From positions 62,001-126,000 of the forward strand of contig NZ_JAUCZG010000008.1 in assembly GCF_030373225.1 (NCBI RefSeq): a stretch of DNA of 64,000 nucleotides, written 5' to 3'. This document shows positions 30,470 to 53,563 of the stretch, piece after piece (positions within the stretch are counted from its first letter, which is position 1; each line of letters opens with the position of its first letter). Made by a program: the position numbers and the translations under genes. This DNA comes from Hydrogenophaga sp. Lineage in GTDB: Bacteria > Pseudomonadota > Gammaproteobacteria > Burkholderiales > Burkholderiaceae_C. Under the pieces are notes generated by a model. It searched no databases and was not told the DNA's origin. It worked only from the letters and a program-made list of their open reading frames with translations.

Positions 30470-31147
30470 TCACGCCGGCTCCGGCTGGCTGCTTTCGCTG
30501 CACAGCATGCCGCGCGTCTCGATGAATCGCACCACCTCGTCAACACCGTCCAGGGTCTTGAGGTTGGTCATCACCCAGGGCCGGCGAACGCTGTCGGGCC
30601 GCATGCGGGCCGTGTCGGCCTTCATCACTTCGAGATCGGCGCCCACGTGCGGTGCGAGGTCGGTCTTGTTGATGACGAAGAGGTCGCTCTTGGTGATGCC
30701 GGGTCCGCCCTTGCGCGGAATCTTCTCGCCCGCGGCCACATCGATCACGTAGATGGTGAGGTCGCTGAGCTCGGGGCTGAAGGTGGCAGCGAGGTTGTCG
30801 CCGCCGCTCTCGATGAACACCACGTCGGCGTCGGGAAACTCGGCGAGCATGCGGTCGATGGCTTCCAGGTTGATGGAGGCGTCTTCGCGGATGGCGGTGT
30901 GCGGGCAGCCACCGGTCTCCACGCCCATGATGCGATCGGCCGGCAGCGCACCACTGACGGTGAGGATGCGCTGGTCTTCCTTGGTGTAAATGTCGTTGGT
31001 GATGGCAATCAGGTCGTACCGGTCGCGCATGGCCTTGCAGAGCATCTCGAGCAGCGTGGTCTTGCCCGAACCGACCGGGCCGCCGATGCCCACGCGCAGC
31101 GGTGGCAGGTGTTTGGTGCGGCGGGGAATGTGGTGCAGGGGGGTCAT
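30470..31147 (-). CDS. ureG: Urease accessory GTPase UreG
   Basis: UreG is a SIMIBI-class GTPase that drives nickel delivery to apo-urease together with UreE, UreF and UreD. The 225-residue protein has the P-loop [12 protein letters not shown] near residue 23, the nickel-binding CPH motif in [12 protein letters not shown], and [27 protein letters not shown] is the G4 region. Its start overlaps the ureF stop by 4 bases. Confidence 0.97.
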
Positions 31148-31863
31148 GAGCGGAACAGGCGTGAGTACTGGGTTTCGTGTCGGGCGGAATGGATGGCCAG
31201 CAAGGGCAGGAAGGCCTGGCGGTCATTGTCGTGCAGGGCGATGGCACGGTCGACGGCCGCGGGGATCTGTCCCGCCAGGCGCGCCAGCATGCGTTGACCG
31301 GCGCTCTGTCCGAGCGGCACCGACTTGACGGCTGCCTGCACCATGTTCTCGCACCAGCCGAAGGCGTAGCCCAGCAGGCTGTCGTGAACGCTGGCGTCGC
31401 TGCGGGCGGCGGCACAGGCGCAGGCCACGGGGTAGGTGGGTGGGTCCAGCCGCGCGGACTGAAGCTGCTCGAAGACACCGCTGCCCAGCGCGCCGAGTTG
31501 ACGCGCCCACTCCATCAGGGAACGCCCCATCTGTTCGCTCTGCAGGCGAAACTCGAGCGTCTCGCGGGTCTGCAGTACCCAATGGTTGAGTGCTGCGATG
31601 CGCACAAGATCGTTCGCCTGCCACGCGGGGATGGCCTGGGCCACCACCGCGAGGTCGCTGCGGGCCAGGCCGAGCTGCAGCTGGTCGGTGAGCCAGGCCG
31701 CTGCACTGGCTTCGTCGTGCACCAGACCCGCCTCCACCGCCGATTCGAGCCCCTCGGAATACGAGAAGCCGCCCACCGGCAGGGCGGGAGACGCCAGCCA
31801 GAGGATCTGCAGCAGGCTGGCTGCCGTTCGCCGCGGGGCCAGGGCCCCGTCAGCCGTGGTCAT
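31144..31863 (-). CDS. ureF: Urease accessory protein UreF
   Basis: UreF bridges UreD and UreG in the urease activation complex. The 239-residue protein has [21 protein letters not shown] near the N-terminus and the C-terminal [21 protein letters not shown] ending ([14 protein letters not shown]). It starts at 31863, overlapping the ureE stop by 14 bases; the longer frame from 32022 lies within ureE. The partner UreD is not encoded here. Confidence 0.94.
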
Positions 31864-32395
31864 GGCTGTGGTGCGCGTGGCCGTGATCGTCCCGGGCGGC
31901 ATGAACGTGGGTGTCGCCCGCGCCGGCACCGTGGCCACCATACGCGCCGGCCTCGGGCTCGAAGGGCTCCCGCACCTCGACCACTGTGAGGTGCATGGCG
32001 CGCAGCATCGCGGCCAGCACATGGTCGGGCTCGATCTTCAGGTGGTCGCGTTGCAACTCGATCGGCACGTGCCGGTTGCCCAGGTGGTAGGCGGCGCGCA
32101 TGAGGTCGAAGGCCTGGTCTTGCGCCGGGTGGTCGGGGCAGGCGCTGATGCGCAACACCGCTTGGGGCGCGGCCACCACACGCAGCAGCGAGCCGTCCTG
32201 GGTGACCAGCACATCGCCACCCCGCACCACGGTGCCGCGTGGCAGGAACACGCCCACGTGGCGTTCGTCGGAAGCGACGGTGTCGAAGCGGCTTTTCTGG
32301 CGGATGTCCCAGTCGAGATCCAGGTGTGCGGCACGCTGCACCAGCGGCCTGGCGAGGCCATGGCCCTGGGGGATGAGTCGGGAGGCTTGCAACAT
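31850..32395 (-). CDS. ureE: Urease accessory nickel chaperone UreE
   Basis: UreE carries nickel to the urease activation complex. The 181-residue protein has the N-terminal peptide-binding domain and a C-terminal metal-binding domain with [13 protein letters not shown]. It ends in a His/Asp-rich tail ([17 protein letters not shown], seven His) that can hold extra nickel. It lies 10 bases after ureC. Confidence 0.95.
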
Positions 32396-32405
32396 GGGGT
32401 GTCGT

Positions 32406-34124
<1,719 letters not shown>

Positions 34125-34126
34125 GG

Positions 34127-34432
34127 TCAGAGCTTCCCTTGAACGAGGCCGCGAAAGCCGTGCACGATGCGCGCACCCGCGTAGTCCACCAGCTCCACCG
34201 TTCGCTGCTGGCCAGGCTCGAAACGCACGGCCGTGCCGCTGGCGATGTTCAGGCGCATGCCGCGAGCCGCCGCGCGATCGAAATCGAGCGCGCCGTTGGT
34301 CTCTGCGAAGTGGTAGTGCGAGCCGACCTGGATCGGGCGGTCGGCGCTGTTCTTCACCACCAGGGTGAGCGTGCGCCGGCCGGGGTTGAGCGTGTGAACG
34401 CCCTCGTCGGTGAAGAGTTCGCCGGGGATCAT
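34127..34432 (-). CDS. ureB: Urease beta subunit
   Basis: The 101-residue protein begins [19 protein letters not shown] and contains [19 protein letters not shown], both typical of UreB. It is a structural subunit of the (UreABC)3 trimer. The start at 34432 is chosen from the family N-terminus. It is separated from ureA by the ureJ/hupE gene. Confidence 0.97.
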
Positions 34433-34449
34433 TCGGTGCCTCCTCGGTT

Positions 34450-35037
34450 TCAGCCAGCGATGAGCGACCAGCCCATGTTCAAGCCCATCACGGCGACCAC
34501 GCCACCGGCCACGCGCGGTGCCCAGTGGTTGGCGCGCTGGAGACCCAGACCCATGGCGATGCCCACCCCGTGCAACGCAGCGGTGCCCAGCACCATGCCG
34601 GCCAGCGCTGCGCCATCGGCAAGCTCCTGTCCGTGGGCTGCGCCATGAAACAACGCAAAGGTGCCCACCAGCACCGCGCCCGCCGCCTCGGGCAGCTTCA
34701 CCTGCGCAGCCAGCAGCAGTCCCACCACCAGCAGGGAGGCGGCGATCATGGGTTCGATCGCCGGGAAACCGATGCCGGCCTGTGCAAGCAGCGCGCCCGC
34801 CAGCAGCAAGGCCGCGAAGGACAGCGGTGCAACCCAGAGGCGCCGCGTGGTCATGGCGCTCCACACGCCCACAGCCAGCATGGCGGCCAGGTGGTCCAGC
34901 CCGGTGATGGGGTGCAGAAAGCCGGTGAGCAGGCCGCCGTGGTCGTGTGCGCCACCCACGTGGGCCGCGGCGGAAAACGACAGGGTGGCGAGCGCGACGG
35001 CGAACAGGCTTCGTTTGATCAGGGCAGAAGAGCTCAT
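34450..35037 (-). CDS. ureJ: HupE/UreJ family nickel transporter
   Basis: The 195-residue protein has a signal-like N-terminus ending [14 protein letters not shown]. This is followed by about six membrane segments. It carries the HupE/UreJ signature [12 protein letters not shown] and [13 protein letters not shown], with His residues suited to nickel binding. It probably imports nickel for urease. Its place between ureA and ureB is common in proteobacterial urease operons. Confidence 0.93.
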
Positions 35038-35063: not shown

Positions 35064-35366
<303 letters not shown>

Positions 35367-35406
35367 GGCGGTGCGTGCGGGTCGGTGGTGTCTGACGCTT
35401 CAGGTC

Positions 35407-35422
35407 AGCAAGTCCCGTGCCC
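35407..35422 (-). promoter_or_regulatory. Sigma-54 promoter for the urease operon
   Basis: On the minus strand the sequence is GGGCACGGGACTTGCT. It matches the consensus TGGCACG-N4-TTGCW at every fixed position but the first, with GG and GC exactly 10 bases apart. Transcription would begin near 35397, about 30 bases before the ureA ATG. Sigma-54 promoters need an activator such as NtrC; no certain NtrC site is seen. Confidence 0.8.
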
Positions 35423-35434
35423 CGGGCACCGGTG

Positions 35435-35450
35435 TGGCACGAAAGCTGCA
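35435..35450 (+). promoter_or_regulatory. Sigma-54 promoter for the permease-kinase gene
   Basis: The sequence TGGCACGAAAGCTGCA matches TGGCACG-N4-TTGCW with one mismatch (C for T) and correct GG-N10-GC spacing. It lies back to back with the urease promoter, 12 bases away. Predicted start is near 35461, leaving a leader of about 66 bases before the ATG at 35527. A near-palindrome GCACCGGTGT lies between the two promoters (35426-35435). Confidence 0.75.
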
Positions 35451-35526
35451 CAAACGTGGCGTGACGACCATCCCCATTGTTCCCATCAGAGCCACGCCTG
35501 CCGCCACCGCCGGGCAGGAACCCGGC

Positions 35527-38500
35527 ATGGATGCGCCCCAGCGCATCACCCGCGTGCGCCGCGACTACAACAACTGGGTGGGCAGCGAAACCATGGAGGA
35601 CTACGCGCTGCGCTACACGCCGCAGCGCTTTCGCAAATGGAGCGAATGGCGCGTGGCCAACACGGCATTCGGCGCCGCCTCCTTCCTGATCCTGGAAGCC
35701 GTGGGCGCCACGCTGCTGGTGCAATACGGCTTTGTGAACGCCGCGCTGGCCATCCTGTGCACCGGCCTGATCATCTTCCTCGCCGGCCTGCCGATCAGCG
35801 TGTACGCCGCCCGCTACGGGGTCGACATGGACCTGCTCACGCGCGGCGCGGGCTTCGGCTACATCGGCTCAACCATCACCTCGCTGATCTACGCGACCTT
35901 CACCTTCATCTTCTTTGCGCTCGAAGCGGCGGTGATGGCCTACGCGCTGGAGCTCGCGCTCGACATTCCGCCCGCCTGGGGTTACCTCATCTGCGCGGTG
36001 GTGGTCATTCCGCTGGTCACGCACGGGGTGTCGGTGATCAGCCGCTTCCAGATGTGGACCCAGCCGCTGTGGCTGGTGATGATGGTGGTGCCCTTTGTGG
36101 CGGTGGCGGTCATGGCGCCCGAAACATTCACCAACGTGGTGCGTTATGGGGGCGAATCCGGTGCAGGAGCGGTGTTTGACTGGCACCTGTTTGGTGCAGC
36201 CCTCACCGTGGGCATCGCGCTCATCACCCAGATGGGCGAGCAGGCCGACTACCTGCGTTTCATGCCCGCACAGGAGCCCGGCAAGGGCCTGCGCTGGTGG
36301 GCCGGTGTGCTGGCGGGCGGGCCGGGCTGGGTGCTGCTGGGTGTGGTGAAGATGCTCGGTGGTGCGCTGCTGGCGTATCTGGCCATCAGCCACATGGTGC
36401 CGCCCGAGCGCGCGGTGGACCCCAACCAGATGTACCTGGCGGCCTACGAATACGTGTTCGCCGACTACGGCTGGGCGGTGGCGGCCACGGCACTGTTTGT
36501 CGTGGTCTCGCAGCTCAAGATCAACGTCACCAATGCGTATGCCGGTTCGCTGGCCTGGAGCAATTTTTTCTCACGCATCACCCACAGCCACCCGGGGCGC
36601 GTGGTGTGGGTGGTGTTCAACACCTTCATCGCCTTCATGCTGATGGAGATGAACGTGTTCCAGGCGCTGGGCCAGGTGCTGGGCCTGTACTCCAACATCG
36701 CGATCGCCTGGATCATGGCGGTGGTGGCCGATCTGGTGATCAACAAGCCGCTGGGCTGGAGCCCCAGGGGCATCGAGTTCAAGCGCGCCCACCTGTACGA
36801 CATCAACCCGGTGGGCGTGGGTGCCATGGTGCTGGCCTCCGTGCTGTCGATCACCGCCCACATGGGTTTGATGGGGCCGACAGCGCAGGCGTTCTCGGCC
36901 GTGATTGCGATGGTCACGGCGTTTGTGACGGCGCCGCTGATCGCCTGGGCCACCCAGGGCCGGTACTACATTGCGCGGGCTGGCGGCGAGCTTGCAGAGC
37001 GTGTCCACACCTGCGTGATCTGCGAGCGCGAATACGAGGGGCCGGACATGGCCCACTGCCCGGCATACCAGGGGCACATCTGTTCGCTCTGCTGCACGCT
37101 CGACGCGCGTTGCGGAGACCTGTGCAAACCGCACGCGAAACTCTCCGAGCAGTGGATGGGTGCGCTGCGGCGCGTGCTGCCGCGCTCCATCTGGCCCTAC
37201 CTCGAAGCCGGCCTGGCGCATTACCTGCTGCTGATGCTGGTGATGGCGCCGGTGCTCGCTGCGGTGCTCGGCCTGTTGTACCGCCAGGAGGTGCAGGCCA
37301 TCGCCCAGCGCATGGGGCTGGCGGCCAACGCCGGCCTGCTCGATGCCGCATTGCGCTCGGGTTTCCTGCGGGTGTATGCGGTGCTGCTGCTGATCACGGC
37401 CACGGTGGCGTGGTGGCTGGTGCTCACGCACAAGAGCCGCGAGGTGGCGCAGGAGGAGTCCAACCGCCAGACGCGCCTGCTGCTGCAGGAGATCGAGTCG
37501 CACCGCCTCACCGACGAGGCCCTGCAGCAGGCGCGACGGGCCGCGGAACAGGCCAACCAGGCCAAGACGCGCTACATCAGCACCATCAGCCACGAGCTGC
37601 GCACGCCGCTCAACAGCATCCTGGGCTACGCGCAGCTGCTGCAGGAAGACACCGGCCTGGCACCGCACCGGGCCCAGGCGATCCGGGTGATCAACCGCGG
37701 GGGTGAGCACCTGCTCTCGCTGATCGAGGGCACGCTGGACATCGCGCGCATCGAGTCCGGCAAGCTCGCACTCGATGTGCGGCCCATGGCCTTTGCCGGC
37801 GCCATGCAGGAGGTGGCCGGCATGTTCGAACTGCAGGCCAGCGCCAAGGGCCTGCGCTTCGCTTTCGAGACCGGCAGCCGCCTGCCCGACACGGTGCGGG
37901 CGGACGAAAAGCGGCTGCGCCAGATCCTCATCAACCTGCTGGGCAATGCGGTGAAGTTCACCCGCACCGGGCAGGTGCGCCTGCGCGTGACGCACGCCCG
38001 CGAGATGGCGCAGTTCGAGGTGCACGACACCGGACCGGGCATGCGGGCGCAAGATCTCGAGCGCGTGTTCGAGCCGTTTGCGCGCGGACAGAACGAAGCC
38101 GCTGCGCCCGGGCCGTCCAGCGGCACCGGACTGGGCCTGACGATCGCCAAGATGCTGACCGATCTCATGGGTGGCGAAATGACCGTGCGCAGCGAGCCCG
38201 GCGCGGGTTCGGTGTTCACCGTGCGCCTCTTTCTGCCCGAGGTGCATGGTGCGGTGCTGCCGCGCCCGCTGGCGCTGCCCGGCCACATCGGCTACGAGGG
38301 TCCGCGCCGGCGCGTGCTGGTGGTCGACAACGAAGAAGCCGACCGCGAGCTGATCCAGCGCTGGCTGGAGCCGCTGGGCTTCGAGGTGATGCTGGCCACC
38401 AGCGGCCTGGACGCGCTGGCGCTGCTCGAGGGCCTGCAACCCGGTGCCGCCGGTGCACCCGACGCCGTGTTCATGGACCTGGCCATGCCCGGCATCGACG

Positions 38501-38958
38501 GCTGGGAAACCATGCGCCGCCTGCGTGCCGCGGGCTGGAGCGCGGTGCCGCTGGCCATCGTGTCGGCCAATGCTTTCGACAAGGGCCCGCAGATCGACGG
38601 CGACGGCCACCTGGGTCACCGGCCGCAGGACTTCTTTGTGAAGCCGGTGCGGCGCGACGACCTGGTGGGCTGGCTCGGCCTGCGGCTGCGGCTGGCGTGG
38701 ATCGAACTCGCGCCGCCGGCCGCCGCTGCGGTGTCGACCCAACCCGCCGGCACAGACCCCGCCATCACCCGCAGCCACGAATGGGTGCCCTTGCTCGAAC
38801 TCGTGCGCCTGGGCTATTACAAGGGCATCGTGCAGTGGCTCGACGACTGGGTGCACGAACACCCCGATCAGGCCGCGTTCGCACAGCAACTGCGAACGCT
38901 CGCGCGCGAGTTCCGCTTTGACGCCATCGAACAGCAACTGCTGCAACGCCATGTCTGA
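35527..38958 (+). CDS. NCS1-type permease fused to hybrid histidine kinase
   Basis: One frame of 1143 codons joins a transporter and a sensor. Residues about 1-480 are an NCS1-like nucleobase/allantoin permease with about 12 membrane segments (NNWVGSETMEDYALRY, SRFQMWTQPLW). Residues 496-533 hold eight Cys and two His in a likely metal site. Two membrane segments follow. The kinase part has the H-box ISHELRTP with His689, an N-box near NAVKF, and GTGLGLTIAKML. A receiver has Asp984 in FMDLAMPG. The ATG at 35527 has a Shine-Dalgarno (CAGGAA), and a GTG at 35461 is the predicted transcript start. The permease probably senses, or senses and imports, a nitrogen compound. The layout resembles SLC5-kinase sensors such as CbrA, but with a different transporter family. 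It overlaps the response regulator gene by 8 bases. Confidence 0.9.
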   Translation: MDAPQRITRVRRDYNNWVGSETMEDYALRYTPQRFRKWSEWRVANTAFGAASFLILEAVGATLLVQYGFVNAALAILCTGLIIFLAGLPISVYAARYGVDMDLLTRGAGFGYIGSTITSLIYATFTFIFFALEAAVMAYALELALDIPPAWGYLICAVVVIPLVTHGVSVISRFQMWTQPLWLVMMVVPFVAVAVMAPETFTNVVRYGGESGAGAVFDWHLFGAALTVGIALITQMGEQADYLRFMPAQEPGKGLRWWAGVLAGGPGWVLLGVVKMLGGALLAYLAISHMVPPERAVDPNQMYLAAYEYVFADYGWAVAATALFVVVSQLKINVTNAYAGSLAWSNFFSRITHSHPGRVVWVVFNTFIAFMLMEMNVFQALGQVLGLYSNIAIAWIMAVVADLVINKPLGWSPRGIEFKRAHLYDINPVGVGAMVLASVLSITAHMGLMGPTAQAFSAVIAMVTAFVTAPLIAWATQGRYYIARAGGELAERVHTCVICEREYEGPDMAHCPAYQGHICSLCCTLDARCGDLCKPHAKLSEQWMGALRRVLPRSIWPYLEAGLAHYLLLMLVMAPVLAAVLGLLYRQEVQAIAQRMGLAANAGLLDAALRSGFLRVYAVLLLITATVAWWLVLTHKSREVAQEESNRQTRLLLQEIESHRLTDEALQQARRAAEQANQAKTRYISTISHELRTPLNSILGYAQLLQEDTGLAPHRAQAIRVINRGGEHLLSLIEGTLDIARIESGKLALDVRPMAFAGAMQEVAGMFELQASAKGLRFAFETGSRLPDTVRADEKRLRQILINLLGNAVKFTRTGQVRLRVTHAREMAQFEVHDTGPGMRAQDLERVFEPFARGQNEAAAPGPSSGTGLGLTIAKMLTDLMGGEMTVRSEPGAGSVFTVRLFLPEVHGAVLPRPLALPGHIGYEGPRRRVLVVDNEEADRELIQRWLEPLGFEVMLATSGLDALALLEGLQPGAAGAPDAVFMDLAMPGIDGWETMRRLRAAGWSAVPLAIVSANAFDKGPQIDGDGHLGHRPQDFFVKPVRRDDLVGWLGLRLRLAWIELAPPAAAAVSTQPAGTDPAITRSHEWVPLLELVRLGYYKGIVQWLDDWVHEHPDQAAFAQQLRTLAREFRFDAIEQQLLQRHV

Positions 38959-45621: not shown

Positions 45622-46380
45622 TCAGTCGGGTGCGTGCCACTCCAGCACCTGCCAATGAACCGGCAGAAGAGGGCTCTTCACCGTGGCCTCCGACTGGCTC
45701 GTGCGCTGCAGGGCACACGTGTGCACACGGCCTTCCCGTTCGGGCACGGTGGCGCGCTCGATGGTCCACACACCATGCTCCAGCGTGCCGAAGCCGATGT
45801 CGAAGTCCAGCAGCTCATCGGCATGCCCCGGATGGCGCGCCACCACCCCGGCCAGCGAGTCGTCGGGCGCCGTGTCGGCGGGCCAGGCGGCGCTGCGCGG
45901 TCGCAGGTGCATGAGGTAGCGTCCGGCCACCAGGAGGCGCTCGGCGGTGGGTGCGCCGCTCTCGTCGAGCGCGCCCAGTGCGATGCGGGTGCCCAGCGAG
46001 CCCGGCAGGCGTTCCCACACCTCGAAGTAGGTGCCGTGGATACCGGTCTCGTGCACGCAGTCGGGCGACTCGAACACCATGTGGCCGGCATCGGGTGTGC
46101 TGCGTGGCGGCTGCAGGTCGATCTGGCGTTGCCAGGTGCAGACCTCGGGTTGGGTGGCGTCGGGCTGTGTGATGAGCGTGGTGCCACCGAAACCCTGCTG
46201 CGCGGCGCGGCCCGCGGGAGTGCGGCGGTCGGCTTCGGGCGGCACGCGCAGGTCGCCGTGCCACAGGCCGGTCTGCAGCCAGCGCACCCAGGTGGTGGTG
46301 TCACGCTCGGTGGGTGTTTCCAGCAGGGTGCGCTGCCACACGCCGTGGTAGCGCTCGGGGATCGGGTCGATGGCGTTCAT
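45622..46380 (-). CDS. Uncharacterised protein, possibly HRI1/lipocalin-like
   Basis: The 252-residue protein starts MNAIDPIPERYHGVWQRTLLE. Patterns WQRTLLETP, TTTWVRWLQTG and WQRQIDLQPP recur in a widespread uncharacterised family, which I recall as similar to HRI1 proteins with a lipocalin-like fold. There is no signal peptide. It is the last gene of the nine-gene operon. The function is unknown; a small-molecule-binding role would fit. Confidence 0.6.
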   Translation of the reverse strand: MNAIDPIPERYHGVWQRTLLETPTERDTTTWVRWLQTGLWHGDLRVPPEADRRTPAGRAAQQGFGGTTLITQPDATQPEVCTWQRQIDLQPPRSTPDAGHMVFESPDCVHETGIHGTYFEVWERLPGSLGTRIALGALDESGAPTAERLLVAGRYLMHLRPRSAAWPADTAPDDSLAGVVARHPGHADELLDFDIGFGTLEHGVWTIERATVPEREGRVHTCALQRTSQSEATVKSPLLPVHWQVLEWHAPD

Positions 46381-46394
46381 GGTTGTGCGGATGG

Positions 46395-46420
46395 GCTTCG
46401 ACAGGCTCAGCCCGAACGGA
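46395..46420. repeat. TTCGACAGGCTC dispersed repeat
   Basis: GCTTCGACAGGCTCAGCCCG followed by AACGGA is 25/26 identical to the copy at 51030-51055. It lies in the 55-base gap between the uncharacterised gene and the metallo-hydrolase gene. Confidence 0.7.
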
Positions 46421-46435
46421 CCTGTGGGCATGCGT

Positions 46436-47230
46436 TCAGATGAAGTTGGGCAGGCTGCGGTAGAAGGCCATGTCGTGGTTCGGCCAGAGGCGTGCGCCGG
46501 TCTCGCGGGCCAGTGCCTTGAGCTTGCGGATGCTCTCGACGGCCTGTTGTTCGCGGCCCTGCCACAGCGTGCCGGGGGCCACCTCGTCGTCGATGTTCTC
46601 CTGCAGGTCGGCCGCGTCGCCGGCCAGCAGCACCGGCGCGCCCGTGGGCAGCTCGACCAGCATCGACATGTGGCCGGCGGTGTGGCCAGGGGTGGCCACG
46701 GCCTGCACGCCGGGCAGCACGCTGTACTCGCCCTGCTTCAGGCAGAACTGGAACGCCCGTCCTTCGTCGTCCAGCAGTTCGTCTTCGAACACCGCGCCGT
46801 CCAGGCCGCTGCAGGCGGCGTCCCACTCGTCGCGCTGCAGCTGGATCTCGGCGCCGCAGCCGCAGCGCTTCAACTCCTTCAAGCCCCCGGCGTGGTCGAA
46901 GTGCAGGTGGCCGATGAAGATCAGGTCGACGTCTTTCACGCTGAGCCCCAGGCGCGCGAGGTGGTTGGGAATTCGCTGCTCCTCGTGCATGTCGGGCGCA
47001 CCCATCTCGAAGCTGGCGGGGTTGTAGTGGCGCTCACGCAGCTCGGGCGTGTGGATCTTGGCGTGGTCGCAGCCCACGTCGTAGAGCAGGCGGCCGTTTT
47101 TCGTCTCGATCAGGTAGGCCAGGATCGGCGCCTCGATGGTCTGTCCGTGGCCCCGGTTGAAGGTGGAGATGGTTTTGTCGTAGCGGTGGGTGGCGGTGAG
47201 CAGCGGCCAGATGCGAAGTGCCTGGGTCAT
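46436..47230 (-). CDS. Metallo-beta-lactamase-fold hydrolase, AiiA-like
   Basis: The 264-residue protein has the HxHxDH motif in GHLHFDHAGG, a further His in TPGHTAGHM and an Asp in LAGDAADL. This is the set of ligands for a di-metal site. The layout resembles N-acyl-homoserine lactonases of the AiiA/AttM group. In this operon it may open a lactone or other ring. No LuxI or LuxR-type quorum genes are adjacent. Confidence 0.85.
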   Translation of the reverse strand: MTQALRIWPLLTATHRYDKTISTFNRGHGQTIEAPILAYLIETKNGRLLYDVGCDHAKIHTPELRERHYNPASFEMGAPDMHEEQRIPNHLARLGLSVKDVDLIFIGHLHFDHAGGLKELKRCGCGAEIQLQRDEWDAACSGLDGAVFEDELLDDEGRAFQFCLKQGEYSVLPGVQAVATPGHTAGHMSMLVELPTGAPVLLAGDAADLQENIDDEVAPGTLWQGREQQAVESIRKLKALARETGARLWPNHDMAFYRSLPNFI

Positions 47231-47241
47231 GGTGGACTCCT

Positions 47242-47955
47242 TCAGGCGCCGGTGAAGGCGCTGACCCAGGTGCTGACCCTGGCGTCGTGGCGATCGGGCG
47301 GCTGCGCGGGCAAGCCCTGCAGCGCAGCCACCGCTTCGTCGGTGCTGCACACCCGTCCGAAAATGCCGCCTTCCACGCCGATCATGGCCAGCGCAGCCGC
47401 CTGCAGCGCGGGGTTGCTGGCGGCGGTGGCGTCGGCCACCGTGGTGCAGGCGTAGCCGCGGTCCACCGCTTCGCGCAGCGTGGAATGCACACACACCTCG
47501 GTGGTCACGCCGCAGACGATGAGCTGGCCAATGCCGCGTGCTGTCAGCAGCTGTGCCAGCCGCGTCTGGTGAAAGGCGCCGTAGCCGGGTTTGTCGATCA
47601 CCTCTTCGCCACCGACGGGGCGCACGGCGTCCACGAAGTCGTGTCCCTGTTCACCGCGCACCAGCAGGCGACCCAGCGGGCCTGTGCTGCCGATCGGCGC
47701 GCCGGCCTGGATGCTGCGCGCCAGCTTGGTGGGTGGGCAGTCGCTCAGGTCGCTCAGGTGGCCCTCGCGCGTGTGCACCACCAGCAGCCCGGCGGCGCGC
47801 GCCGCGCGCAGCAGCCGCACGGCATTGGCCACCACCGCCTGCATGGGGCCGATGTCGATGCCGGCCTGGTGGGCATAGCCACCGGCGCTGCAGAAATCGC
47901 GCTGCAGGTCGATCAACAGCAAGGCGGTGCGGCCGGGGTCGGGCAAGGTGTCCAT
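47242..47955 (-). CDS. Isochorismatase-family cysteine hydrolase, biuret-hydrolase-like
   Basis: The 237-residue protein has the catalytic triad Asp16 (LLIDLQRDFC), Lys122 (VIDKPGYGAF) and Cys155 (CGVTTEVCVHST). HTREGHLSDLSDCPP and GRLLVRGEQGHD closely resemble the biuret hydrolase BiuH group, as I recall it. The Gln that follows in BiuH (MQGGVFG) is Glu here (VEGGIFG). The substrate may therefore be a related ureide, N-carbamoyl compound or amide. It lies 2 bases downstream of the creatininase homologue. Confidence 0.85.
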   Translation of the reverse strand: MDTLPDPGRTALLLIDLQRDFCSAGGYAHQAGIDIGPMQAVVANAVRLLRAARAAGLLVVHTREGHLSDLSDCPPTKLARSIQAGAPIGSTGPLGRLLVRGEQGHDFVDAVRPVGGEEVIDKPGYGAFHQTRLAQLLTARGIGQLIVCGVTTEVCVHSTLREAVDRGYACTTVADATAASNPALQAAALAMIGVEGGIFGRVCSTDEAVAALQGLPAQPPDRHDARVSTWVSAFTGA

Positions 47956-47957
47956 GG

Positions 47958-48749
47958 TCAGACGCCGGCAGGTCGCGTGAAGCCGGTGGTGATGGCCTCG
48001 GCCATGCGCCGCGCGACTTCGTGGCTCAGCAGCCGGCCCTTGTCGGCGTCGGAACCTTTGGCCGACGACAACACACCCGAGGCCGGCACCCAGTCGGTGC
48101 GCGGCGGGTACATGTCGTAGGGTGGAAAGTCGGCCGGACCGTCGTCGGGCAGCAGGTCCATGCGCACAAGATGCGGGTGGTGGTGCAGCATCATCGAGGT
48201 CTCCAGCACCGCGGCGTGCTCCAGCGCGAAACCGGGGAAACCGTCGGGAAACACATCGCCCAGGGTCTCGGGCGTCATGAAGTCCCAGTACTCCAGGCGC
48301 ATCACCTGCAGTGCACTGGCCGGGTCGGCGGCCCGGGCATCGCGCAGGCCGAGGTCGATGCCTTCGATCAGGAACCACTGGTTCTCGTAGTGGCCGTTGA
48401 CGATCACCAGTTTCGTCAAGCCATGGCGCGCGAATTCACGCACCGCGTCGCGCACCTGGCCCACCAGCGTGGCGGCGTCCACGCTGGTGGTGCCGCAGAA
48501 GTGTTGCCCGCCGCCGCACTTGGGCTGCGACTTGTAGCCATACGACAGCGTGGGCGCGACCAGCCCGCCCACGAGCGCTGCGGTGTCGGCGGCCACGGCG
48601 CTGGCCAGCAGCCCGTCGGTGCCCAGTGGCAGGTGCGGGCCGTGCTGCTCGAGTGCACCCACCGGCAGCAGCACCGGCGGCTGGTCGCGCTGCACACGCG
48701 ACTGGTAGTCCACCCACGACAGTTCGTTCATCCACACGGTGGTGTTCAT
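47958..48749 (-). CDS. Creatininase family amidohydrolase
   Basis: The 263-residue protein matches creatinine amidohydrolase in length and register. The metal ligands fall at Glu34, His36, Asp45, His120 and Glu122, the same numbers as in the Pseudomonas putida enzyme. His178 and Glu183 are also kept. YGYKSQPKCGGGQHF is close to the creatininase sequence. Position 174, a substrate-contacting Trp in creatininase, is Phe. It could open creatinine to creatine or hydrolyse another cyclic amide. It lies next to a cysteine hydrolase of the biuret type. Confidence 0.9.
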   Translation of the reverse strand: MNTTVWMNELSWVDYQSRVQRDQPPVLLPVGALEQHGPHLPLGTDGLLASAVAADTAALVGGLVAPTLSYGYKSQPKCGGGQHFCGTTSVDAATLVGQVRDAVREFARHGLTKLVIVNGHYENQWFLIEGIDLGLRDARAADPASALQVMRLEYWDFMTPETLGDVFPDGFPGFALEHAAVLETSMMLHHHPHLVRMDLLPDDGPADFPPYDMYPPRTDWVPASGVLSSAKGSDADKGRLLSHEVARRMAEAITTGFTRPAGV

Positions 48750-49649
48750 TCAGGCTCCTTGGGGTTTGGGATCAGGCGAGGTGTCGAGCGCTTCGGCAAA
48801 GGCGGCCATGGCGATCAGCGCACCACCCGCCCACTCCATGCCGGTCATGGATTCGTCGCCGAACCACAGCGCGCTCATCACCGCCACCACCAGCTCGGCC
48901 AGCAAAATCACGCCGGCCCTGCTGCTTTCGATGTGGGTGACGCCGAACTGCCAGGTGGCGGTGGCCAGCAGCAGCCAGACAAAACCGTAGGCCAGCACGG
49001 CCAGCCAGACGCCCAGGCCCATGCCGGCGGGCACGGCGTGGCCCAGCGTGCTGGTGGCCAACAGCGAGATCACACCGCAGCCGGCGAACACCGCGAAGGT
49101 CTTGCTGACCATGGGCACTTGCTGCGCGGCGCGCGCGATCACGTTGTTGGCCGCGAAACAGAAGCCTGCCGACAGCGCGAGGAAGTCGACGAAGGTGAAG
49201 GCGAGATCGGGCCCGCCCGGCCCGCCCAGAAACAGCCAGAGCCCCAGCAGCGCCACCACCACCGCGGCCCAGCGCAGCGGCGGGATCCGCTCCTTCAGGA
49301 ACAGCCAGCCACCCAGCACCGACCACACCGGCGAGAGGTAGAACAGGAACATCACCCGCACCACGTCGCCCAGCATGAGCGCGTTGACGAACGAGGTGTT
49401 GGCCCAGCCGCCAACCACGGCCAGTGCCAGCAGCAAGCCCCACTGGGGGCGCCAGGCGGCGCGCTGGCGCCAGATGAAGATGCAGCTGAACAGGCCCACC
49501 ACGCCATACGACAGCAGCGACACCATGGGCCCGCTCAGTCCCTGTGCGATGAACCACTTCAGCGGCATCCACGACAGACCCCACAGCGAAGCGGAGAACA
49601 GCAGAACGCCGGTGGCGAAGCGGTTGGACGGGTGGGTGAAGACGGACAT
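48750..49649 (-). CDS. DMT superfamily transporter (EamA type)
   Basis: The 299-residue protein has about ten membrane segments in two EamA repeats. It abuts the creatininase gene with no spacer. Family members usually export amino acids or other metabolites. Here it may remove a toxic intermediate or act as an importer. Confidence 0.88.
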   Translation of the reverse strand: MSVFTHPSNRFATGVLLFSASLWGLSWMPLKWFIAQGLSGPMVSLLSYGVVGLFSCIFIWRQRAAWRPQWGLLLALAVVGGWANTSFVNALMLGDVVRVMFLFYLSPVWSVLGGWLFLKERIPPLRWAAVVVALLGLWLFLGGPGGPDLAFTFVDFLALSAGFCFAANNVIARAAQQVPMVSKTFAVFAGCGVISLLATSTLGHAVPAGMGLGVWLAVLAYGFVWLLLATATWQFGVTHIESSRAGVILLAELVVAVMSALWFGDESMTGMEWAGGALIAMAAFAEALDTSPDPKPQGA

Positions 49650-49658
49650 GCGGGCCGA

Positions 49659-50420
49659 TCAGGGCATGACGGAGCCGCCGTTGGGACCGAGCACCTGACC
49701 GCAATAGAAGCGCGAGAGGTCGCTGGCCAGAAACAGCGCGGTGGCAGCAATCTCTTCCGGCTCGGCCACGCGGTGCTGCGGAATCGCCAGTTCCTTCTCC
49801 ATCCACTCGGGGCTCATGTTCTGCAGCGACACCATGGCGGTGTTCACCGGGCCGGGCGCGATCGCGTTGACCCGGATGCCGTGCGGCGCGAATTCGCGCG
49901 CCAGTGAACGCGTGAGGCCGATCACGCCGGCCTTGGCGGCGCAGTAGGGCGCGAAGTTCTCGCGGCCGAGGATGCCGAGATCGGAGGCGAGGTTCACCAC
50001 CACGCCGCTGCGCTGCGCCACCATGCCGGGCAGCACGGCGCGCGCCATGAGAAAGACCGATTTGAGGTCGGTGCCCAGCAAACGGTCCCAGTCGGCCTCG
50101 GTGGTCTCCAGGAATGGCTTCTCCTGGATGATGCCGGCGTTGTTGACCAGGATGTGGATGTCGCCCACGGTGTGCAGCGCCTCCGCCACCAGGCGCTGCA
50201 CGGCTGTGCCGTCGCTCACGTCGGCGTTGATGGCCACCGCCTGGCCCCCGCCGTTCCTGATGGCCTGCACCAGCGTCGCGGCTTCCTGCGGCTGGTTCAG
50301 GTGGTTGACCACCACCGAGGCGCCCGCCTGGGCCAGCGTCAGCGCGATCGCGCGTCCGATACCGGTGGCAGCGCCCGTGACCAGAGCGGTGCGACCCGCC
50401 AGCGAGATGGCAACGCTCAT
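49659..50420 (-). CDS. SDR family oxidoreductase
   Basis: The 253-residue protein has the classical cofactor motif TGAATGIG, NNAG, and the Tyr-Lys pair in YCAAKAGV. The Asn/His after the second strand (VVNHLN) suggests NADP or NAD could be used. It is FabG-like. The start overlaps the stop of the second SDR gene by 4 bases. Confidence 0.93.
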   Translation of the reverse strand: MSVAISLAGRTALVTGAATGIGRAIALTLAQAGASVVVNHLNQPQEAATLVQAIRNGGGQAVAINADVSDGTAVQRLVAEALHTVGDIHILVNNAGIIQEKPFLETTEADWDRLLGTDLKSVFLMARAVLPGMVAQRSGVVVNLASDLGILGRENFAPYCAAKAGVIGLTRSLAREFAPHGIRVNAIAPGPVNTAMVSLQNMSPEWMEKELAIPQHRVAEPEEIAATALFLASDLSRFYCGQVLGPNGGSVMP

Positions 50421-51250
50421 GCCATCACCTCACCGTGGCTGGCCACCAGGCACTGGCCGGTGAGCGGGCGGGCACCTTCGCTGGCCAGGAACAGGAAGAC
50501 GCCGGCCAGGTCGTCGGGCGTGAGCATCTCGGCCACGGCCTGTCGCGCCAGGATCTCGCGTTCAACCTCGGCCTCGCTGCGGCCTTGCTCCTGCGCCATG
50601 GCGGTGAGCGAACGCAGCGCGGCGTCGGTGCGCACCCAGCCCGGGCAGACCGCGTTGACACGGATGCCGCGCGGGCCGAGTTCCAGTGCGAGCGAGCGTG
50701 TGAGGCCCACCACGGCGTGTTTGCTCGCGGCATAGGCCGAGAACCCCGCCACGCCGATGCGACCCCAGATCGAGCTCTGGTTGATCACGCTGGCGCCACG
50801 CGGCAGCAGCGGCAACAAGGCCTGCGTGAGCCGCACCATGGAGGTGACGTTGTTGTCGAGCAGGCCGGCCCAGCGCTCCATGGCGTCGGGCGCGGTGTCG
50901 TCCAGCGGTGTGGGGTACTCGGTGCCGGCGTTGTTCACCAGCACGTCGAGTGCGCCCCAGCGTTCCCGTACCTGCTCGACAACCGCCGCCACCTGTCGGG
51001 CGTCGGCGAGGTCACACAGGATCGAGTGGGCTTCGACAGGCTCGGCCCGAACGGAGGTGGGCTCGGCCCGAATGGAGGGGGTCTGGTCTCGTCGGATCCA
51101 GTCCAGGGTGCTGGTTGCATCGACCCGGTCGAGCAGCATCAGCCGGGCTCCCTGCGCCGCAAAGGCCCGCGCCAGCGCCAGACCGATGCCGCCGGCAGCC
51201 CCCGTGATGAGCACGGTCTTGCCCTGCAGGCCGTACGACGCGGCGCCCAT
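50417..51250 (-). CDS. SDR family oxidoreductase with in-frame repeat insertion
   Basis: The 277-residue protein has TGAAGGIG, NNAG, and YAASKHAV. After LLDRVDATSTLDWIRRD it carries an insertion (IRAEPTSVRAEPVEAHS) encoded by the dispersed repeat. The insertion falls after the adenine-binding Asp of LLLDRVD and leaves the frame open. The start at 51250 lies 1 base from the desaturase stop. The remaining fold is intact, so it is likely active. Confidence 0.9.
   Translation of the reverse strand: MGAASYGLQGKTVLITGAAGGIGLALARAFAAQGARLMLLDRVDATSTLDWIRRDQTPSIRAEPTSVRAEPVEAHSILCDLADARQVAAVVEQVRERWGALDVLVNNAGTEYPTPLDDTAPDAMERWAGLLDNNVTSMVRLTQALLPLLPRGASVINQSSIWGRIGVAGFSAYAASKHAVVGLTRSLALELGPRGIRVNAVCPGWVRTDAALRSLTAMAQEQGRSEAEVEREILARQAVAEMLTPDDLAGVFLFLASEGARPLTGQCLVASHGEVMA
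51030..51076. repeat. TTCGACAGGCTC repeat inside the SDR gene
   Basis: GCTTCGACAGGCTCGGCCCG followed by AACGGA is almost identical to the copy at 46395. A partial second copy (GCTCGGCCCGAATGGA) follows at 51061. In the SDR frame it encodes RAEPTSVRAEPVEAHS. Confidence 0.75.
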
Positions 51251-51251
51251 G

Positions 51252-52262
51252 TCAGACCGCGGTGAGGAAAGACACCCCCACCGCACCGAGGAAACCATCG
51301 GCCCGGCCCGGCGTGCCCGGCGGCTGCACGGCACCGTAGTTGCTCGCCAGCACGCGCTTGACGCGGTTGACATGAAAACTCTTGAGCAATTCGCCCACGG
51401 TGATGACCTGCGGGTAGCTGTCGGGGTAGAGCTCGCGGTGGAACGCCGGCAGGCGGTACCACGGCGCGGTGGGGCGCTCGTGGTGCGCGTTGTGGAAGCC
51501 GAAGTTGAGCCAGACCAGGTTGAACCACTTCGCATCGAGGCTGACCACATCGCTGTAGGTGTTGGCCTGCTCGTAGGCGCGGTCGCGCAGCTTGTCGGCC
51601 GGGATCGGCGTGTCGTCCATGATCGGGTAGGCGTCGTAGGTGTGCTGGAAGCAGTCGGCGAAACGCAGCACCGTCACGAAGATCAAAAAGGCCAGACAGT
51701 AGAGTGCCAGCGCCTTGAGCGACCACCAGCCCAGCAAGGCGAGTGCAGCGATGCGCACCAGCGCCACGCCGACGACCCGGCCACGGGCCTGCTTCTTCTT
51801 GTCGCCCATGAAGGGCATGGCGATCACGAAGCCGCGCATGACGAACTCCACCGCCGGGATGTAGGCCCATTCGAGTGCCAGCACCACGCGGCGCACGGCG
51901 GGGTGGGCACGCAGGAACGCCTGCGCGTCGAAGGTGATGACATCGGCGCGCTCCACGTGGTGACGCATGTGCTTGCGACGCATGTCGGCGAAGCTGGCGT
52001 AGCAGCTGCCGTTGATCCAGCTCATGAGCGTGCCCCAGCGTTCGTTGGCCTGCGGGGTGCGGAAGATGGCGTTGTGCGCGAACTCGTGGATGTAATAGGC
52101 CGACCAGACCAGTGTCTGTGCCACCAGCAGCACGCCCAGTGCGTTGATCAGCCAGCTGGCCTGACCCAGCAGGGCGATGCCCAGCGGCCAGCCGAGCACG
52201 GTGAAGCCCATGGCGGCGAGGTTCGGCCAGACGCCGTCCTCGTATCGAAAAACCGGTTTCAT
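51252..52262 (-). CDS. Membrane fatty acid desaturase/hydroxylase family protein
   Basis: The 336-residue protein has about four to six membrane segments and three His boxes: HEFAHN, KHMRHH and HNAHH. This is the di-iron centre of desaturases and alkane hydroxylases. In the operon it may hydroxylate or desaturate a small substrate rather than a lipid. It starts 76 bases after the NMT1-type binding-protein stop. Confidence 0.88.
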   Translation of the reverse strand: MKPVFRYEDGVWPNLAAMGFTVLGWPLGIALLGQASWLINALGVLLVAQTLVWSAYYIHEFAHNAIFRTPQANERWGTLMSWINGSCYASFADMRRKHMRHHVERADVITFDAQAFLRAHPAVRRVVLALEWAYIPAVEFVMRGFVIAMPFMGDKKKQARGRVVGVALVRIAALALLGWWSLKALALYCLAFLIFVTVLRFADCFQHTYDAYPIMDDTPIPADKLRDRAYEQANTYSDVVSLDAKWFNLVWLNFGFHNAHHERPTAPWYRLPAFHRELYPDSYPQVITVGELLKSFHVNRVKRVLASNYGAVQPPGTPGRADGFLGAVGVSFLTAV

Positions 52263-52338
52263 GCAAGTGCCTTCAATGGAGATCGCTGTCAGCCCAGCAC
52301 CGATGCCCGCCCGGGCACCGGTGCGTCTGCCCGGAGGC

Positions 52339-53355
52339 TTACTTGAGGCCCTTGACCAGGCTGGCGTCGAAGGTGGACTCGATCGCCGGGATCGTGGTGA
52401 TCTGGCCCTTGGCCTTGAGCAGCTCGCCGATGATCTCGCCGCTGGCGAAGTACGAGGTGGTCTCCTTGGCCTTGGTGAAGGCCTTGGGCATCTCGGCCAG
52501 CGGGATGTTGTAGACGCCGGTGAGCTGCTCCTTCACCTCGGCGGCCGTCACGCCCATGAACTTGCCGATGATCTTGTTGGCTTCGTCGGGCTTGGCTTTC
52601 ATGTAGGCCAGGCCGTCGAGGTAGGCCTGCATGACGCCGGTGATCTGGGCCGGCTTGGCCTTGATGACCTTGTCGTCGAAGACCAGCACGTCGGCGATCA
52701 GGCCGGGCGCGTTCTTCGACGAGAACACCACCTTGAACTTCTTGCCGCCGCCCTGGCCGAGGATCTGCGAGAGGCTGGGCTCGTAGGTCACGCCGATGGG
52801 CAGCTGGCCCGAGGCCATCGCCGCCGGCACGGCTTCGGGCGTCATGCTCACCGGGGTGATGTCTTTCTCGGTGAGGTTGACCGTCTTGAGGGCATACGAG
52901 AGCAGGAAGTCGGATGGCGAGAGCGGGTTGTAGCCGATCTTCTTGCCCTTGAAATCGGTCACCTTGGTGATGCTGCTGTCGGCCACGATCGCATCGCCTC
53001 CGTTGGAGTAGTCGATGGGCATGACCACCTTCATGTTGCGGCCCGCCGCCACCTGGCCGACCACCTGGTCGTAGGTCAGCATGCCGCCGTCGACTGCGCC
53101 CGAGGCGATGGCCGCCGGAATCAGCGCCGGGTCGTTGAAGACCTGCAGCGAGACCTTGAGGTTGTATTTCTTGAACAGGTCCAGCGACTCGGCGACGTAG
53201 AACGGGCCGTAGCCGATCCACACCACGGTGGCGATCTTCATCTGGGCGGGTGCCTGCGCGAACGATGAGAAAGCGGCCAGCGACAGGGCCAGGCCCAGGG
53301 CCGGCTTGAAGAAGTGGTTGCGCCGGCTGGACAGGGTGGGGGCAGAGGTTTTCAT
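52339..53355 (-). CDS. NMT1/TauA-type ABC substrate-binding protein
   Basis: The 338-residue protein has a signal peptide ending SFAQA and the NMT1/NrtA pattern: WIGYGPFYVAESLDLFKKYNL and SGAVDGGMLTYDQVV. The ATG at 53355 is preceded by a Shine-Dalgarno (GGAGC). Such receptors bind sulfonates, pyrimidine precursors or aromatic acids. No matching permease or ATPase lies in the operon. It is the first gene of the nine-gene operon. Confidence 0.92.
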   Translation of the reverse strand: MKTSAPTLSSRRNHFFKPALGLALSLAAFSSFAQAPAQMKIATVVWIGYGPFYVAESLDLFKKYNLKVSLQVFNDPALIPAAIASGAVDGGMLTYDQVVGQVAAGRNMKVVMPIDYSNGGDAIVADSSITKVTDFKGKKIGYNPLSPSDFLLSYALKTVNLTEKDITPVSMTPEAVPAAMASGQLPIGVTYEPSLSQILGQGGGKKFKVVFSSKNAPGLIADVLVFDDKVIKAKPAQITGVMQAYLDGLAYMKAKPDEANKIIGKFMGVTAAEVKEQLTGVYNIPLAEMPKAFTKAKETTSYFASGEIIGELLKAKGQITTIPAIESTFDASLVKGLK

Positions 53356-53563
53356 CAGGGGGCTCCGTGGGTTGAAAGGGCGTGCAGGAAGAAGCGATCG
53401 GTGGATCGTTCTCCCGGGCTTTTGTCCCTCCGTGGAGCCTGCGATGAGGCCGGCACACTCTCGGACCAGACACCGCGCAAACGCGGTCGGAACCCTAGTG
53501 CACCTGAATACCGAGCAGATGATCGGGCGGACCCGCAATCGCTCTTCTTGCGCCATGTTCATC

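Follow-up and report, generated by a model that had tools for sequence, protein, structure and literature searches.

The locus examined here raises the question of which compound is handled by a nine-gene operon on the minus strand, at positions 45622-53355, of a 64,000-nucleotide stretch of Hydrogenophaga sp. DNA (the window). In order of transcription it encodes a substrate-binding protein (g1), a desaturase-type di-iron protein (g2), two short-chain dehydrogenases (SDRs; g3, or SDR1, and g4, or SDR2), an EamA exporter (g5), a creatininase homologue (g6), an isochorismatase-like hydrolase (g7), a metallo-beta-lactamase-fold (MBL) hydrolase (g8) and the protein g9. A first-pass annotation had correctly placed all nine genes on one strand and in this order, with gaps of -4 to 76 bases (recomputed from g1 to g9 as 76, 1, -4, 9, 0, 2, 11 and 4), and attributed them to the turnover of an unidentified nitrogen compound. 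On the sequence evidence set out below we consider it probable, though by no means certain, that guanidine induces the operon and that the encoded enzymes turn an N-alkylated guanidine, of which methylguanidine is the most likely, into free guanidine that would enter the guanidine carboxylase pathway as a nitrogen source.

Riboswitch and linkage to guanidine carboxylase genes

Guanidine compounds are the most likely substrate class because the operon is headed by a guanidine-I riboswitch (RF00442), which the first-pass annotation had not noticed. The element is full length (aptamer positions 1-107 of 107), scores 85.2 bits compared with a gathering score of 63 and lies about 50 bases 5' of g1 on the same strand, the unit starting there; guanidine control of the operon is predicted from its presence. 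A terminator following the aptamer was considered and rejected, as the one stem found there is weak and no clear U-tract accompanies it. A search of the genome identified two guanidine-I elements in all, the second of which precedes the organism's own gca operon, composed of genes for an ATP-binding cassette (ABC) permease and its ATPase, a urea-amidolyase-associated protein, a guanidine-II riboswitch, and genes for a urea/guanidine carboxylase and allophanate hydrolase. The urea-amidolyase-associated protein we take to be carboxyguanidine deiminase, CgdAB. The carboxylase matches a library model named urea carboxylase and is here called guanidine carboxylase because of its operon neighbours and the pathway described in the available parts of PMC12508155 and PMC9800807.

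A search with g2 of 299 genomes from the same family gave 12 matches at E 1e-40, including the genome studied. Within the other 11 regions (L016-L026) the genes present always follow the order g1 to g9; all nine occur in L016, L019, L021, L023 and L024, and fewer in the remainder, where L022 is a short contig and L018 stops within the block. The carboxylase is found in all 12 genomes that contain g2 and in 20 of the 287 that do not (Fisher P 2.6e-13, uncorrected for kinship). The block directly follows the gca operon in L018, L020, L021, L023 and L024, L022 begins with allophanate hydrolase, and a guanidine-I element lies 5' of g1 in ten of the 11 regions, the exception being L020. In three regions from another family (L052-L054) the block is followed by a permease and an ATPase that are 66-74% identical to the pair in the Hydrogenophaga gca operon.

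A wider set of named loci comprises the best 80 of 129 g2 relatives from a g2-alignment scan of GTDB species genomes; as these loci were found through g2, it is present in every one. At least eight are the same places as L017, L018, L020-L024 and L026 (L018 is also L091, L020 is L104, L021 is L103, L022 is L106, L023 is L111 and L024 is L128), and the two sets are not summed. Hosts include Hydrogenophaga (among them H. pseudoflava and H. flava), Polaromonas, Rhodoferax, Aquabacterium, Oxalobacteraceae, Thiomonas delicata, Tepidimonas sediminis, a Pseudomonas and many unclassified Burkholderiales metagenome-assembled genomes (MAGs). Gene order is kept throughout, except that L114 has an additional, distant relative of g7 and L137 has duplicated genes, and a gca-operon enzyme gene is present on the examined DNA of 39 of the 80 loci, in L097 merely as a 34% match on the other strand. 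Of the 76 loci with enough upstream DNA, 72 have the riboswitch core motif before g1 at a distance of no more than 700 bases (the contigs of the other four start in or near the block), the covariance model used for this set having been built partly from places also among the 80. The four without it before g1 are L119, where the motif lies 2 kb upstream before permease and ATPase genes, L137, whose contig begins inside the motif, L104 and L134. Many Burkholderiales thus share the block, and in them it frequently adjoins the operon for guanidine carboxylase. Its conservation in distant genera rules out a chance gene array, and the genes that the first-pass annotation had grouped are kept together in relatives, not scattered. 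In one locus, L137:150-10718, the block contains two paralogues of g2 as well as three genes for binding proteins, which suggests two different oxidations or substrates.

With regard to transport, three other relatives of g1 were found in the organism's genome (24-28% identical), none of them on the contig with the gca operon, where the permease and ATPase sit. Because of this, and because permease and ATPase genes follow the block in L052-L054, g1 is probably the binding subunit of a guanidine ABC importer that it would form together with the gca-operon permease and ATPase.

The MgdL homologue and the candidate hydroxylase

The available part of PMC12508155, a 2025 report of a methylguanidine pathway in a halophile, describes hydroxylation of methylguanidine by MgdH and splitting of the resulting N-(hydroxymethyl)guanidine by MgdL, which is narrow for this compound and was modelled as a beta-barrel with the catalytic residues Asp49 and Arg51 inside. 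A profile search with g9 of 398 genomes of the phylum found 12 places in 11 genomes: two in the window's own genus, the three g2-type blocks L052-L054 and seven further places (L055-L061, in six genomes). Five of the 12 are hence in g2 blocks, and all seven others have a gene for an MgdH-like 2-oxoglutarate (2OG) dioxygenase no further than about 2.5 kb away (its Pfam assignment was checked for L055 and L058). This gene is on the opposite strand in L056, and in L057 two binding-protein genes intervene. The order in L058 (guanidine-I element, ABC transporter, cgdAB, guanidine-II element, gca, dioxygenase and g9 homologue, with allophanate hydrolase further on) is the published arrangement as given in the accessible text of the same source.

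Identity between g9 and the MgdL-like protein of L058 is 30-31% (E 2e-17 and 7e-18). The latter has Asp at position 49 and Arg at position 51 (counted by eye), matching the catalytic positions stated in the part of PMC12508155 available, and the Asp-x-Arg motif is invariant in nine aligned sequences and in 63 of 63 block copies (62 by motif, L075 by eye). The parts of the Vreelandella boliviensis MgdL primers obtained from that text gave no match in L058, so the L058 protein is regarded as an MgdL relative and not as the exact V. boliviensis enzyme; the homology of g9 to MgdL is accordingly homology to this relative, which was recognised from the order of the genes around it and from the numbering of its residues. 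The AlphaFold model of g9 (pLDDT 91.7) is composed mostly of strands and agrees with the MgdL beta-barrel, compared by its description in the partial text only, whilst Foldseek comparison of the model with the PDB returned lipocalin-like barrels at weak E-values. The g9 protein is an MgdL homologue, which we predict to act as an N-(hydroxyalkyl)guanidine lyase; no family model matches it at E 0.001. The start of g9 is ambiguous, as the first 17 codons of the frame that begins at 46431 overlap a short dispersed repeat; the next ATG, at 46380, was used for alignments.

Some further observations concern g9 and its relatives. The 21-bp repeat TTCGGGCTGAGCCTGTCGAAG is found on the minus strand at 46396-46416, without mismatch, and at 51031-51051, with one mismatch, whereas chance would give no such pair, sitting at the 5' end of the g9 frame and within SDR1, where it is translated as extra residues. 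The sole PDB match of the g9 model at E 0.001 is yeast YLR301w (Hri1; 3rby, titled uncharacterized in the PDB; E 9e-7, TM 0.58), and the Pfam HRI1 model scores 18.2 bits on g9, under its cut-off of 27; the shared fold may hint at hemiaminal chemistry in YLR301w. A Novosphingobium plasmid carries a g9 homologue (28.6%, E 6e-4), and a second dioxygenase-MgdL pair in the genome of L058 lies beside ABC transporter genes (L059:8805-13590).

The preceding step would fall to g2, a PF00487 protein with three histidine boxes (HEFAH, KHMRHH and HNAHH) that are invariant in 12 sequences, and whose closest named relatives are from Hydrogenophaga and a Comamonadaceae MAG (93% identity). It occupies the place that an MgdH-like dioxygenase holds near g9 relatives outside this operon type. 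As a PF00487 protein rather than a 2OG-Fe(II) dioxygenase, g2 was rejected as a member of the MgdH family, although it may work like MgdH. An MgdH search found no match in the organism's own genome or in that of L016, whereas relatives of 57% and 51% identity were recovered with this query from two distant genomes, and for this reason g2 is the candidate hydroxylase. Assignment of g2 as the guanitoxin arginine hydroxylase GntB was also rejected, NF041365 scoring 23.9 bits against a cut-off of 380. The equivalence of g2 and MgdH receives limited support from L055:5326-12419, where genes on one strand beside gca encode a binding protein, EamA protein, MgdL, MgdH, MBL hydrolase, creatininase-family protein and type III glutamine synthetase, so that a different hydroxylase is accompanied by partners of similar kinds; the MBL protein of L055 is 44% identical to that following g9 in the Hydrogenophaga locus L017. 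A g2 homologue (33%) was also seen in Gloeothece. As a tentative extension, to which we give rather less than an even chance, g2 may be the founding member of a class of di-iron enzymes that hydroxylate N-alkylguanidines and have no kinship with MgdH; its product would have two parallel exits, one through the lyase and the other through a so far undescribed oxidation by the SDR to an acylguanidine, hydrolysed in turn by a repurposed creatininase.

Proposed routes to guanidine and alternative substrates

In the mechanism that we favour, g1 would bind guanidine or methylguanidine and deliver it to the ABC importer that the two operons share, and g2, as a di-iron oxygenase, would hydroxylate the carbon adjoining the guanidine nitrogen to give N-(hydroxymethyl)guanidine. 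By route (a) this intermediate would be cleaved by g9 to guanidine and formaldehyde; by route (b) it would be oxidised by SDR2 to N-formylguanidine, an acylguanidine like creatinine, which g6 would hydrolyse to guanidine and formate. A further acyl- or carbamoylguanidine could be converted to guanidine by g7, and g5 would export excess. The freed guanidine would be carboxylated and degraded by the gca-cgdAB-atzF products, and would also feed back on the riboswitch as inducer. Two points favour methylguanidine as the substrate: the pairing of MgdL relatives with MgdH in other places, and the apparent use of a single binding protein for both guanidine and the substrate.

Gene content was counted in those 56 of the 80 named loci that have room for the whole block (the other 24 have too little DNA); each SDR was assigned to a type by its best match, for which at least 50% identity was required. 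The counts are g1 54, g3 44, g4 48, g5 47, g6 48, g7 51, g8 37 and g9 54, and a second MBL type occurs in 11 of the counted loci without g8. SDR2 and the creatininase are both present in 48 of the 56 loci and both absent from eight, neither ever occurring alone. Two minimal layouts are seen. The first, g1-g2-g4-g6, is that of L104 (Tepidimonas sediminis), in whose genome g9 was not found elsewhere. The second, g1-g2-(g5)-g7-g8-g9 without SDRs or creatininase, is that of seven of the 56 loci, L107 being alike but uncounted since it has too little DNA. When the genomes of these seven and of L134 were searched for creatininases at E 1e-10, nothing was found in six of the eight and distant relatives only in L119 and L123; five of the seven genomes have no other creatininase at this threshold. 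In four of the seven loci g5 is retained although the flanking g4 and g6 are gone, so their joint absence is not easily explained by one deletion. Our reading is that the two layouts represent alternative exits from one g2 product; gain of a module, instead of loss, is also compatible.

The closest solved relatives of g6 are 3a6e (E 4e-76) and 1j2t (E 2e-75). The residues that we take to be the creatininase metal ligands (Glu34, His36, Asp45, His120 and Glu122) are invariant in 12 aligned sequences, and Trp174, which presumably also has a role in creatininase, is Phe in 12 of 12 aligned g6 sequences and, among 62 copies from named loci, Phe in 57 and Tyr in three, the motif not being found in two. 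Creatinine is a cyclic acylguanidine, and hydrolysis by a creatininase of a linear acylguanidine made by an SDR would therefore be chemically natural. A second creatininase-family gene in the organism's genome (G000:C32:34373-35122) scores 98 bits with the mycofactocin MftE model and 70 with the creatininase model, both below cut-off.

Action of the creatininase as a first step on creatinine was considered and is retained as a rival, namely catabolism of creatinine or creatine via methylguanidine, which we regard as unlikely. In this scheme g2 would hydroxylate C5, an SDR would yield 5-oxocreatinine, the creatininase would open the ring, g7 would split the resulting linear acylguanidine into oxalate and methylguanidine, and the latter would be demethylated with the participation of g9. 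That g6 is nearest to true creatininases, that g6 and g7 both belong to families cleaving acyl- or carbamoylguanidines, that SDR and creatininase are linked across the 56 loci, and that abiotic formation of methylguanidine from creatinine is cited in the available part of PMC12508155 are all consistent with it. However, one oxygenase would have to perform two different hydroxylations (although L137 has two g2 paralogues), Trp174 is replaced by Phe or Tyr in each of the 60 of 62 g6 copies where the motif was found, the seven loci of the second minimal layout retain g7-g9 in the absence of SDRs and creatininase, and use of a single binding protein for guanidine and substrate would favour a small substrate.

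Another rival, which we likewise think improbable, has a larger guanidine as substrate: an alkylguanidine or a guanidino acid, for example guanidinoacetate or a guanidine derived from arginine. Here g2 would hydroxylate the carbon adjoining nitrogen, and g9 would then free guanidine, leaving an aldehyde or keto acid as the carbon half for the SDRs and MBL hydrolase to process. Two SDRs and a lactonase-type MBL hydrolase exceed the needs of a one-carbon leaving group, and the MgdL tests mentioned in the accessible portion of PMC12508155 cover only intermediates derived from methyl- and dimethylguanidine; nevertheless, the same portion describes the enzyme as narrow for N-(hydroxymethyl)guanidine, and loci with only g1-g2-g4-g6 and those with only g1-g2-g7-g8-g9 have no carbon-processing gene in common.

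For g7, described in the first-pass annotation as biuret-hydrolase-like, assignment as a biuret hydrolase was rejected, as the BiuH model NF050097 scores 248 bits against a cut-off of 370 and the active site carries guanylurea-hydrolase substitutions. The protein is 57% identical to a protein of plasmid pMET-2 that adjoins a deaminase gene of P. mendocina MET, and 51% and 45% identical to biuret hydrolases; by description and position the pMET-2 protein is the guanylurea hydrolase BB_00025 assayed in PMC9800807, for which partial text was available. At the positions taken by Gln, Lys and Trp in two biuret hydrolases, both g7 and the guanylurea hydrolase carry Glu, Tyr and His, and the active-site Glu is present in all 59 of the 63 g7 copies in which the motif was found. 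We predict that g7 is of the guanylurea hydrolase type. A 60% relative on a Nitrosospira plasmid has no guanidine genes among its listed neighbours in 17.5 kb.

The kinship of g7 with an assayed guanylurea hydrolase, together with the ABC transporter that adjoins the pMET-2 gene and whose binding protein is 32% identical to g1, could be taken to mean that the operon serves mainly guanylurea, biguanide or metformin-type compounds with g7 at its centre. We consider this very unlikely, given that g7 is missing from five of the 56 counted blocks and that the enzymes which the available part of PMC9800807 names for the guanylurea pathway include no hydroxylase, SDR, creatininase or MgdL. The first-pass proposal of a cyclic amide or ureide without relation to guanidine, oxidised and then opened, draws on the family names of g6, g7 and g8 and is now highly improbable, having been superseded by the riboswitch, the gca linkage, the homology of g9 to MgdL and the kinship of g7; its core, oxidation of a substituent followed by hydrolysis, still fits the hydroxylase, SDR and amidohydrolases, no cyclic substrate being needed. 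Pyridoxine-, thiamine- and ureide-type pathways, suggested by family names, were dropped once the riboswitch and gca linkage had been found.

Several observations weigh against the conversion of methylguanidine to guanidine that we favour. Concerning its enzymes, the published MgdH/MgdL system, as described in the partial text of PMC12508155, needs no creatininase, SDR, g7 or g8, and the extra enzymes thus suggest another or larger substrate; g3 and g8 are without a step in the proposed pathway, and routes (a) and (b) would be redundant in this organism. No relative of g2 with a known substrate was found, its library matches being weak (carotene ketolase 31.5, desaturase 30.4 and guanitoxin arginine hydroxylase 23.9 bits); no match was found among PDB sequences, and its structure model is of low confidence (pLDDT 66.7), Foldseek with this model returning nothing at E 0.001. 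A distant g2 homologue, L027 (45%), which is the second one of its genome, stands alone without operon partners. In G675, a genome of the g2 type, a separate contig carries a 40% MgdH relative whose match contains a stop.

Other such points come from gene neighbourhoods. L104 and L134 lack a riboswitch motif before g1. Among the MgdL-like places outside g2 blocks, gca is present on the examined DNA of five of L055-L061 and absent from 20 kb in L057 and L059, and on the same DNA a guanidine riboswitch scores above cut-off in L058, L060 and L061 but not in L055, L056, L057 or L059. The creatininase of L055 is only 26% identical to g6 and its binding protein 29% identical to g1, and its exporter gives no BLAST match to g5 at E 1e-4. 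SDR2 and creatininase lie within 400 bases of each other in only six of 48 loci, with g5 between them in most; three to six changes suffice to explain their joint state on the g2 tree; and L112, one of the 24 uncounted loci, has a creatininase with a single SDR that is SDR1-like and not SDR2-like. The g9 gene of L024 (15250-16020) has one in-frame stop.

Relation to known systems and other features of the window

Conversion of methylguanidine to guanidine by this operon would closely resemble the MgdH/MgdL system of Vreelandella boliviensis, as the available part of PMC12508155 describes it, in having a guanidine-I riboswitch, gca-cgdAB-atzF genes, an ABC importer and an Asp-x-Arg lyase-family protein with an oxygenase encoded alongside. 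It differs in that the oxygenase is a desaturase-type di-iron protein and not a 2OG dioxygenase, in that the operon in the window is separate and carries the binding protein, and in the addition of SDRs, creatininase, a guanylurea-hydrolase-type enzyme, an MBL hydrolase and an exporter. Similarly, g7 shares with GuuH / BB_00025 of Pseudomonas mendocina, so far as PMC9800807 was accessible, the Asp-Lys-Cys positions and the Glu/Tyr/His substitutions, and its product is predicted to feed the same guanidine pathway, but it sits within a hydroxylase-MgdL operon. Like the Pseudomonas creatininase (1j2t), g6 is well above the TIGR04448 cut-off and keeps the aligned metal-ligand residues and the Tyr-Trp-Asp motif; unlike it, g6 has Phe for Trp174 and is tied to an SDR, and no creatinase or sarcosine gene is among the nine. 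Riboswitch control and, probably, the ABC transporter are shared with guanidine carboxylase (ykkC-associated) operons, although the operon in the window is proposed to act upstream of these, making guanidine and not degrading it.

Each enzyme family is known already, as is riboswitch-controlled dealkylation feeding guanidine carboxylase, from MgdH/MgdL; what appears new is the operon itself, with the proposed desaturase-type hydroxylase and the proposed second exit. No description of this gene set was found in the open-licence literature searched, in keeping with the first-pass statement that its author knew of no pathway with these genes, and the terms 'creatin', 'isochorismatase' and 'short-chain dehydrogenase' were not found in the available part of a 2025 review (PMC12186494). 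Guanidine biology is young and few guanidine-making enzymes are known. If correct, our proposal would extend the use of alkylguanidines to Hydrogenophaga and many other Burkholderiales, provide a second, unrelated hydroxylase for the same methylguanidine step and place creatininase- and guanylurea-hydrolase-type enzymes in one pathway. The operon further points to the binding protein that would complete a guanidine ABC transporter.

Table 1. Positions in the window of the operon genes and their leader, with assignments and supporting matches.
Feature	Position	Strand	Basis
Guanidine-I (ykkC) riboswitch aptamer, operon 5' leader	53409..53509	-	RF00442, 85.2 bits
g1, NMT1/SsuA-type substrate-binding protein	52339..53355	-	PF09084; TIGR03427 100.7 bits (cut-off 333.9)
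g2, desaturase-type di-iron protein, probably membrane; proposed N-alkylguanidine (methylguanidine) hydroxylase	51252..52262	-	PF00487, 1.5e-35
g3, SDR dehydrogenase 1, accessory	50417..51250	-	PF13561/PF00106; in 44/56 loci
g4, SDR dehydrogenase 2; proposed oxidation of hydroxyalkylguanidine to acylguanidine	49659..50420	-	PF13561
g5, EamA exporter	48750..49649	-	PF00892
g6, creatininase-type amidohydrolase; proposed acylguanidine hydrolase	47958..48749	-	TIGR04448, 355 bits (cut-off 235)
g7, isochorismatase-like hydrolase, guanylurea hydrolase type	47242..47955	-	57% identity to assayed guanylurea hydrolase
g8, MBL-fold hydrolase, kin of AiiA / 4-pyridoxolactonase	46436..47230	-	Library matches
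g9, MgdL homologue; proposed N-(hydroxyalkyl)guanidine lyase	45622..46380 (start 46431 in the first-pass annotation)	-	Homology to L058 protein; Asp-x-Arg

The pairing of families in Table 1 with those of the first-pass annotation is supported by Pfam and NCBIfam for the binding protein, SDRs, EamA exporter, creatininase and MBL hydrolase. Elsewhere in the window, urease genes were recognised by eye at 30470-34864, including a UreC-size open reading frame (32406-34124) and a UreG-like one (30470-31147), with an Rfam match to the 5'ureB small RNA at 33674-33963 on the strand opposite to the urease genes. A single frame at 35275-38958 on the plus strand appears, also by eye, to encode a cytosine/purine-type permease fused to a sensor histidine kinase and receiver.

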